Below, piece after piece: positions 12,361 to 14,547 of a stretch of 36,772 nucleotides of DNA. Position numbers and translations under genes: made by a program. Within the stretch, counting starts at the first letter, position 1. Each line of letters begins with the position of its first letter. Source of the stretch: Altererythrobacter sp. (lineage in GTDB: Bacteria > Pseudomonadota > Alphaproteobacteria > Sphingomonadales > Sphingomonadaceae); NCBI GenBank assembly GCA_029265155.1, contig JAJUJV010000009.1, positions 1-36,772 on the forward strand, written 5' to 3'. The notes under the pieces were generated by a model that ran no database searches, was not told where the DNA came from, and worked only from the letters and a program-made list of their open reading frames with translations.

Positions 12361-13518
12361 TCACCGGAAGCGGCCCCATACGAAGCGGCTCGACAAGGCG
12401 TAGTTCCACACCGATCCGACCAGAACACCGGCGAGCGCCGCCGCGTAGGCAGGAATGCCAGCTCTCACCAACACTGTTGCTACACCCACGTTGGTCAACA
12501 GCCCTATCGAACAGGTCAGGGCGAACTTGAGCCAGCCCCCCAGCAAGGCTCTCGCCCCGCGCAGCCGCTGGTCGGCGTAAGTCAGTGCGTTATTGAGTAC
12601 GAAGTTGAAAGTCATCGCCACGAGTGCCGCCAAGCTTTGCCCAACTTCGAAACCCGTCACGTGATCTTCGAAGCTACCCCCAAACAACGTCAGGAATGCA
12701 CCCAAGACCGCCATGTGGACAATGACGCCAACCCCGCCGATCGTCCCGAACAGCGCAAACCGCGTCGGCACGATCCAACCGAGCCACTTGTCGTAGAGTC
12801 CAACCAAGAACTCGAAAACGATAGTCCGGTCGAGCTTGCTTTCCCCTTCCCTTCGGGCTGCAAAACGCAGTGGAAACTCTCGCACGCGCAGCGGCTGCTC
12901 GGCGGTAGCGAGGATGTCGAGCAGGATCTTGAAACCGATACCGGAGAGCCGATCCGCATCGCGGCGGACAACCTCGGTGCGGATCATGAAGAAGCCGCTC
13001 ATCGGGTCGGTCAGCGCCACGCCGACAACCTTTCGGGCGAGGCTGTTCGCCAGCGCGGACGCTTTTTCCCGATCCGGCCGGCTCCAGTCGGCGGTGCTGG
13101 CGCCCGGCATGAACCGCGAGGCGACCGCGACGTCGCATTCGCCGGCGCGGATTGCCTCGAGCATCGTCGGAAGCAGTTCAGGATCGTGCTGCAGGTCGGC
13201 GTCCATCACCGCGACTACCGGCGCGGCGGTAGCGCACATGCCCTCGATGGCAGCACTTGCCAGTCCGCGACGACCGAATCGTTGAATGACTCGAATTCGC
13301 GGGTCAACCGTCGCGATCCGCCGCACCTCATCTGCAGTGCCGTCGGTACTGTTGTCATCGACGATGATGGCTTCCCAACCAATTCCCGCAAGCGCAACTT
13401 CAAGCCGGGCGATGAGTGCACCGATATTTCCGCGCTCGTTATACGTCGGAAGCACGACCGCCAATTCTAAAGCGTGGGTAATGGCGCCGTCCGCTGGCCG
13501 GCTGGAGAGCTGATTCAT
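12361..13518 (-). CDS. GT2 polyprenyl-phosphate mannose synthase-like domain fused to a C-terminal GtrA-like membrane domain
   Basis: LAVVLPTYNERGNIGALIARLE...AIIVDDNSTDGTADEVRR...VAVMDADLQHDPELLP...; GtrA-like C-terminal half (RFALFGTIGGVGVIVHMAVLGAF...). Confidence 0.92.
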   Translation of the reverse strand: MNQLSSRPADGAITHALELAVVLPTYNERGNIGALIARLEVALAGIGWEAIIVDDNSTDGTADEVRRIATVDPRIRVIQRFGRRGLASAAIEGMCATAAPVVAVMDADLQHDPELLPTMLEAIRAGECDVAVASRFMPGASTADWSRPDREKASALANSLARKVVGVALTDPMSGFFMIRTEVVRRDADRLSGIGFKILLDILATAEQPLRVREFPLRFAARREGESKLDRTIVFEFLVGLYDKWLGWIVPTRFALFGTIGGVGVIVHMAVLGAFLTLFGGSFEDHVTGFEVGQSLAALVAMTFNFVLNNALTYADQRLRGARALLGGWLKFALTCSIGLLTNVGVATVLVRAGIPAYAAALAGVLVGSVWNYALSSRFVWGRFR

Positions 13519-13580: not shown

Positions 13581-13624
13581 GAAAATGAGAAGGGCCGCCC
13601 CGGCTTGTGCCAAAGCGACCCTTC
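13581..13624 (-). terminator. Strong intrinsic terminator of a small minus-strand transcription unit
   Basis: Minus strand GAAGGGUCGCUUUGGC ACAA GCCGGGGCGGCCCUUC (16-bp stem counting G-U pairs, ACAA loop) followed by UCAUUUU. Confidence 0.75.
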
Positions 13625-13678
13625 GCATGGTCAGCGGCCGGTTGAGCCGCTCACGAAGCCTTTATCGGCGAAAAGAGA

Positions 13679-13735
13679 CTACCGATAATGCTCCGCGCGG
13701 GCCGTCACCGACCTCCCTGCTGAACCATGAGACAT
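13679..13735 (-). CDS. Candidate small ORF MSHGSAGRSVTARAEHYR (18 aa), unknown function
   Basis: ATG preceded by GAAAGGAGGTGATCCG, matching the 16S anti-SD over AAAGGAGGTGATCC, with GGAGG-to-ATG spacing of 7 nt; TAG stop; not in the supplied ORF track because of length. Confidence 0.55.
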   Translation of the reverse strand: MSHGSAGRSVTARAEHYR

Positions 13736-13916
13736 CGGATCACCTCCTTTCGCGCTTGAAAGCCACGCCCGCCGTTTCACCGGGGGCCAGGCACGCGTGA
13801 ACCGCGGGCCTGGGGAGAATGTGAGTCCGCACGCAGGTTAACACAAGCCTTGTGTTTGCCTTTTTCCCCGCCAGGATATGCGCTTCGCGCGTTTTCGTCC
13901 CCTAGGCTTAGTGCGG

Positions 13917-14462
13917 TCAGCGGCAATCCTCGATCGCGCGCGTGACTTCCGGATACGCGGGAACATAGAGCGTCGGCAGCGCGCTCACCTCCACGGCGAA
14001 ACGACCGCGGGAGAAGGCCATTGCATCGAGAAGCGGATCGCGAGCTGGAATCCTGGCGACAATCGTTGGTAAGGGCCCGCCGGTCGAGACAGCCGCTACG
14101 CCCCGTTCCATCGTTTCAGTCCGAACCGATATCTGTGTGGCTGCCGGGGCCGTTCCTGATCGGGCCAGTTCGACAACTCCGCCGGCACGGTCGCAACGCA
14201 GGACCAGTAGAGCTTCACTTTGCGGCGGGCCGAATCGCGCGGCCCCCGCGTCATAGAACCACTCGCCGGGCGTCTGGGGGGCATCGATCCAGTTGCCGGC
14301 AAATGGCGGCGCCGTAGGCGACGGCGAGGGAGCCGGTTGAGGCGCCGGTGCAGGCGCGGGAGCGGGTGTTGGCGGCGCCGGGGGCGGCGGCACGCACGCA
14401 GCCAGCGCCAGGCAGAGGAACAGCGTTGAGCGGTGCGTCTGAGCGAGAGGGCGATGGCGCAT
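13917..14462 (-). CDS. Proline/alanine-rich lipoprotein, unknown function
   Basis: MRHRPLAQTHRSTLFLCLALAACVPPPPAPPTPAPAPAPAPQPAP: lipobox LAAC and Pro-rich linker. Confidence 0.75.
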   Translation of the reverse strand: MRHRPLAQTHRSTLFLCLALAACVPPPPAPPTPAPAPAPAPQPAPSPSPTAPPFAGNWIDAPQTPGEWFYDAGAARFGPPQSEALLVLRCDRAGGVVELARSGTAPAATQISVRTETMERGVAAVSTGGPLPTIVARIPARDPLLDAMAFSRGRFAVEVSALPTLYVPAYPEVTRAIEDCR

Positions 14463-14547
14463 GAAATTGAGCTCCTGCGGCGGACGGCCAGATCGGTAAA
14501 GCAACAAGCGCTGGCCTGCCCGGTTTCATCGCCGTATCGCCCGCGCG

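Follow-up and report, generated by a model that had tools for sequence, protein, structure and literature searches.

A divergent sphingomonad form of the CC2171 small RNA with a complete 16S-tail Shine-Dalgarno sequence and a probably translated short ORF

Sequence comparison supports the presence, in the window (the whole 36,772-nucleotide stretch of Altererythrobacter sp. DNA analysed here), of a conserved, usually single-copy, structured RNA gene whose neighbours change between genomes and whose ORF is selected for its start, frame and stop. The element lies on the minus strand and its small RNA is probably translated. Judged by its alignment and shared motifs, it belongs with the alphaproteobacterial CC2171 RNA as its divergent sphingomonad form, and hence is not wholly novel. 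The reading that we prefer, with a probability of about 0.55, is that the element is an independent small RNA which is translated, and that selection acts on the capture and short transit of a ribosome and not on the peptide; we infer this target of selection from the pattern of conservation described below.

The element occupies a 398-bp gap between a GT2-GtrA gene and a lipoprotein-like gene (Table 1). In same-genus relatives the place of the GT2-GtrA gene is taken by an ilvE-like gene of aminotransferase class IV. A preliminary description of this DNA had reported an 18-aa minus-strand ORF with a Shine-Dalgarno sequence (SD), a hairpin and a terminator, and all of these are seen in the sequence. 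Its terminator stands as a 16-bp stem with an ACAA loop, which an independent terminator search also found, but the tail is just moderately U-rich. The two-hairpin 5' leader is found in close relatives, while Sphingomonas/Sphingobium leaders are shorter and lack it. Five Sphingomonas/Sphingobium loci, among others, have long clade-specific insertions between the stop codon and the 3' half, which hold extra hairpins such as GGGGGGTATCCTCCCCC.

Table 1. Features of the small RNA locus, in window coordinates.
Feature	Position	Strand	Basis
GT2-GtrA gene	12361-13518	minus, as element	Pfam Glycos_transf_2 and GtrA
Lipoprotein-like gene	13917-14507		no Pfam match
Small RNA gene, SD through terminator	13589-13750	minus	
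Candidate promoter: -35 TTGTGT, 17-nt spacer, -10 CACATT, preceded by AAGNCTTG context	13818-13846	minus	conservation
GANTC (CcrM methylation) site at -10 element	13823-13827	.	positional conservation
5' leader, clade-specific, two hairpins (GGCCCGCGG..CCTGGCC; CCCGGTGAAACGGCGGG)	13768-13810	minus	folding and relatives
SD AAAGGAGGTGATCC, 14 nt, complementary to whole free 16S 3' tail	13737-13750	minus	
ORF, 18 codons, ATG..TAG, MSHGSAGRSVTARAEHYR	13679-13735	minus	start and stop positions conserved
P1, start-codon hairpin, CCGATGTCTC with GGGAGGTCGG	13708-13738	minus	RNAalifold
P2 long-range helix, 5' strand CATGGTTCAGC = codons 3-6	13719-13729	minus	
P2 long-range helix, 3' strand GCTGACCATG	13626-13635	minus	
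H2 hairpin, CGCGGAGC-A-TTATCGG / CCGATAA-AG-GCTTCGTG, stop codon in apical part	13652-13697	minus	
H3 hairpin, GCGGC/GCCGC	13634-13650	minus	
Intrinsic terminator, 16-bp stem, ACAA loop, tail TCATTTTC	13589-13624	minus	

An Rfam search of the window at the gathering threshold returned two tRNAs and nothing else. In a relaxed search the element matched RF01867 (Caulobacter sRNA CC2171; E=7.7e-10, 51.6 bits) over the full length of the family, positions 1-159 of 159, with the conserved core motif included; the remaining low-scoring matches, in which the terminator is mainly what aligns, were set aside. Because 51.6 bits lies below the Rfam gathering cut-off of 75 bits, we call the element a divergent homologue and not a curated member. 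Across the class RF01867 was found in 61 of 289 genomes, above the cut-off in nine; six of 15 class loci that were rescanned reached it, class members score up to 90.5 bits, and the family was detected in the control genome, Caulobacter vibrioides. The core CGAAAGGAGGUGAUCC-R-UGUCUCAU is common to both forms, as are a long-range helix (CAUUGUC/GACAAUG in CC2171) and the terminator; the CAUxGU segment pairs with an ACxAUG segment, as in RF01867, and this partner co-changes across the class. The sphingomonad form differs in its ATG start, its helix CAUGGUUCA/UGACCAUG and its 18-codon ORF. Two copies occur in one genome of the same family (G072), at C1:805104-805255 and C1:2921849-2922077; the CC2171-like copy scores 68.9 bits and the other has the sphingomonad form. 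MH_s33 of Mesorhizobium huakuii has been assigned to RF01867, in a study where predicted sRNAs were compared with RNA-seq (PMC5596092). Identity with CcnA was considered and set aside on the published description of CcnA as CCNA_R0094, located at the Caulobacter origin (PMC8959179).

By DNA similarity the element is present in 29 of 61 genomes (its own and relatives), and a DNA pattern located at least 120 loci among named genomes from Sphingomonadales, Acetobacteraceae, Hyphomicrobiales, Azospirillum and Caulobacterales. With the SD, RTG and TC fixed, the pattern matched 79 of 385 class genomes, against none for the reversed-pattern control, and a phylum sample gave a single match outside Alphaproteobacteria, the rest falling inside. 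A distant blastn search of plasmids gave no match to the element. For the family we used a covariance model built without the SD and without the start codon, which matched 121 of 151 genomes, one match per genome. Absent from the model, the SD was nonetheless complete (14 nt) in 63 of the 70 matches read back; ATG was present in all 70, and the ORF had 18 codons in 59, 19 in seven, 20 in three and 15 in one.

The predicted RNA structure is also conserved. The 167-nt RNA folds 6.3 s.d. better than its dinucleotide shuffles, none of 200 being as good. Over 36 sequences the proposed structure has 97.4% of cells paired, compared with 31-50% when the partners are slid, and 22 pairs have changed on both sides, with 0/500 shuffles as good. 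The compensatory stem changes that the preliminary description had looked to as a test were found, with double changes at 13 of 15 H2 pairs and covariation at nine of 13 counted terminator pairs. H3 has 99.4% of cells paired and P1 97.6%. Within the sphingomonad clade P1 is nearly invariant and P2 invariant, so neither yields covariation there. Across the class P2 co-changes, with a complementary 6-mer in 125 loci out of 149 where permutations gave 53 on average and 64 at most; P1, read by eye, pairs as CCGA/UCGG here and CCAG/CUGG in other orders (GAUCCAG/CUGGAUC in the GTG clades). The minimum-energy fold of the window RNA contains P2; P1 and P2 may coexist in a pseudoknot or be alternative folds.

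Selection on the ORF is seen at both of its ends. In 160 loci collected without fixing the first start-codon base, just ATG (89) or GTG (71) was found. In sphingomonads the ORF has exactly 18 codons in 72 of 78 distinct loci, whereas stops in the other two frames scatter, and codon 19 is a stop in 72 of 81 loci (TAA 42, TGA 25, TAG 5); as all three are used, the stop is kept as a function and not as letters. Elsewhere the ORF is mostly 20-26 codons long. Among 74 class-wide loci picked by SD and start alone, frame 0 has a stop at codons 14-30 in 66 and an earlier stop in none; the other two frames have one in that interval in 16 and 11 loci, and earlier stops in 35 and 38. Locus counts overstate independent events, the loci being related by descent, but comparing frames within the same loci controls much of this. 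In Azospirillum and some relatives in the class (five loci) the same SD and start open a 56-59-aa ORF with a signal-peptide-like N-terminus, reflecting either convergence or a family turned into a small exported protein.

The clearest competitor to our preferred reading is a small mRNA with the 18-26-aa peptide as functional product, the SD serving high output and the helices stabilising the message. The class-wide conservation of frame, start and stop fits it, as do the recurring MSH[CG] N-terminus and the TWIxAS (GTG clades) and EQPS (others) motifs. The substitutions point the other way in sphingomonads. Of the 89 single-base codon changes counted past codon 6 over 46 independent pairs, 21 are synonymous where 24.6 are expected, and the changes number 38, 30 and 21 at codon positions 1, 2 and 3, the third changing least in codons 7-17. 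The variable sphingomonad peptide thus shows no synonymous excess, in a comparison limited in power by its 89 changes and confounded by RNA structure, and most of the peptide is without sign of purifying selection. Outside sphingomonads there is a mild excess that favours a peptide product (26 of 65 synonymous in 14 pairs of GTG-start loci, expected 20.8). The first six codons (MSHGSA) are nearly invariant, so that this N-terminus may be functional, but the MSHG codons overlap P2, TWIxAS overlaps the internal anti-SD CUGGAUC, and peptides of different orders have little in common. A further short-ORF group, of seven loci, ends in EQPS/EQPL-like residues, whose codons may form another internal anti-SD. 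The conservation that the preliminary description had set as a test holds strongly for stems and ORF boundaries, but not for most of the peptide sequence. Translation itself seems to matter more than the peptide made, and we regard a functional peptide product as doubtful.

What would attract the ribosome is the SD. Counting the G that precedes it, it extends to 15 nt and is the complement of GGATCACCTCCTTTC at the 16S 3' end. Its duplex with the 16S tail has an energy of -29.9 kcal/mol, whereas the upstream regions of the large ORFs tested within the window reach -18.3 kcal/mol at best, in agreement with the earlier remark that it outranks the SDs of the annotated genes inspected here. The 14-mer occurs once in the 2.36-Mb assembly, and its spacing to the start is nearly constant across loci. 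Some clades (four loci and others) have AAAGGAGGTGGTCC, in which A to G retains 16S pairing via G-U. The transcript had also been proposed to be heavily translated; pairing with the entire 16S tail might equally produce an initiation site that is slow or that traps the ribosome. Outside sphingomonads, complementarity of the ORF to the SD exceeds that of shuffles (mean z -1.3 in 86 loci and -1.4 in 38), which suggests that the ORF there carries an internal anti-SD resembling the 16S tail, and with it a switch opened by that tail. Over 67 sphingomonad loci the mean z is -0.4; the internal anti-SD is not evident, and the switch would be weaker or different in this clade.

These data allow us to propose a mechanism for a translated RNA of this kind. 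Single-stranded AAAGGAGG would act as a toehold for the 16S tail, which would pair onward through GUGAUCC and open the start-codon hairpin P1; in most other clades the start region would be held by the anti-SD segment within the ORF. The ribosome would then open P2 and H2, terminating in the H2 apex, leaving the RNA in either a ribosome-bound or a folded state. Its output could be titration of 30S subunits, or targets could gain access to the 3' strand of P2. We favour an RNA that regulates in trans and is gated by ribosomes whose anti-SD is free, and a dual-function sRNA, as offered in the preliminary description, is possible.

A more specific proposal is that the RNA senses ribosome state: mostly ribosomes with a wholly free anti-SD, such as those lacking bS21, idle or newly made, would open it, and the bound/folded switch would be coupled to the cell cycle through a GANTC promoter. 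It builds on the match of the SD to the 16S tail over its full length, the portion near the start codon included, to which bS21 is argued to bar access; in E. coli, bS21 has been argued to hinder extended SD pairing (PMC13009471). We hold it to be unlikely in this specific form. We also consider it unlikely that the element is a base-pairing regulator with an incidental ORF, its SD-like stretch binding not 16S but other RNAs, such as anti-SD sRNAs of Alphaproteobacteria that it might sponge. The anti-SD CCUCCUCCC does occur in the alphaproteobacterial sRNAs SmelA075/SmelA099 (PMC3927594), and the SisA-D siblings are opposed by a sponge, CrfA (PMC12559287). Here, however, conservation continues through UGAUCC, matching 16S rather than CCUCCUCCC loops, and a sponge leaves the conservation of start, frame and stop unexplained.

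An independent, translated small RNA should also have its own transcription signals. Of 79 sphingomonad loci, 66 have the motif AAGNCTTG upstream of the element. In 47 of these 66 a GANTC falls 10-30 nt past the -35 TTG; the distance is exactly +19 in 36, against an expectation of about 1.4. A strict sigma-70 consensus scan of the upstream region gave no promoter match, so the promoter call rests on conservation. GANTC near the -10 element is typical of CcrM/GcrA-controlled promoters, and its fixed place in the candidate promoter of many sphingomonad loci suggests cell-cycle (CcrM/GcrA) control. The element ends in its own terminator, as an independent intergenic small RNA should. The dedicated small transcript of the preliminary description is thus backed by the terminator and a conserved candidate promoter, while its probable translation rests on comparison.

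The same description had suggested a leader or attenuator of the same-strand downstream gene. The GT2-GtrA gene does start 70 bp past the terminator stem, and many family members, same genus included, have a same-strand gene for a class-IV (branched-chain type) aminotransferase next. Against this, the gene that comes next is not the same in the window as in its own genus, and in other orders the neighbours differ again, so that no constant gene class follows and the element is not a cis leader; the aminotransferase, where present, lies 104-804 nt from the start codon, the intervening terminator is strong and covarying, and the peptide has no run of regulatory codons. We consider a leader highly improbable. 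On the plus strand, GGATCACCTCCTTT equals the 16S 3' terminus, but the idea that the element is a displaced piece of the 16S 3' end, or mimics it, can practically be dismissed: this match spans just ~15 nt, neither the gathering nor the relaxed Rfam search gave an rRNA match, and every signal for a promoter, an ORF or a terminator is on the minus strand.

An RNA family filed in Rfam as an sRNA thus appears, from comparative evidence, to be translated and spread through much of Alphaproteobacteria, with a built-in anti-SD in many clades; should its function lie in being translated, the RNA would be a natural switch that the 16S tail opens. CC2171 is filed in Rfam as an sRNA gene, whereas the comparisons made here favour translation. 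The literature searched, to which the original 2008 report did not belong, contained no description of RF01867 as a translated RNA with a whole-tail SD, and a search for a 16S-complementary alphaproteobacterial sRNA gave no match. In the accessible part of Schrader et al. 2014 (PMC4117421), two previously predicted Caulobacter ncRNAs, not named there, are translated, and ~75% of Caulobacter genes are without an SD.

Several known systems share features with this element. The alphaproteobacterial rnTrpL/peTrpL and Pos19 are likewise short RNAs with a short ORF (PMC10117765, PMC5036791), but rnTrpL is a leaderless attenuator with a functional peptide, whereas the RNA described here has an extreme SD and a drifting peptide. 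SisA-D/CrfA of Caulobacter are alphaproteobacterial sRNAs that pair via anti-SD-like motifs; the Sis RNAs carry an anti-SD motif where our element carries an SD, and the accessible part of the report gives no role to a Sis ORF (PMC12559287). In the extended SD of Staphylococcus aureus, start-proximal SD:anti-SD pairing continues beyond GGAGG, as it would here; the extended SD is general in many S. aureus mRNAs (PMC13009471), whereas in the Altererythrobacter assembly it is a near-unique site.
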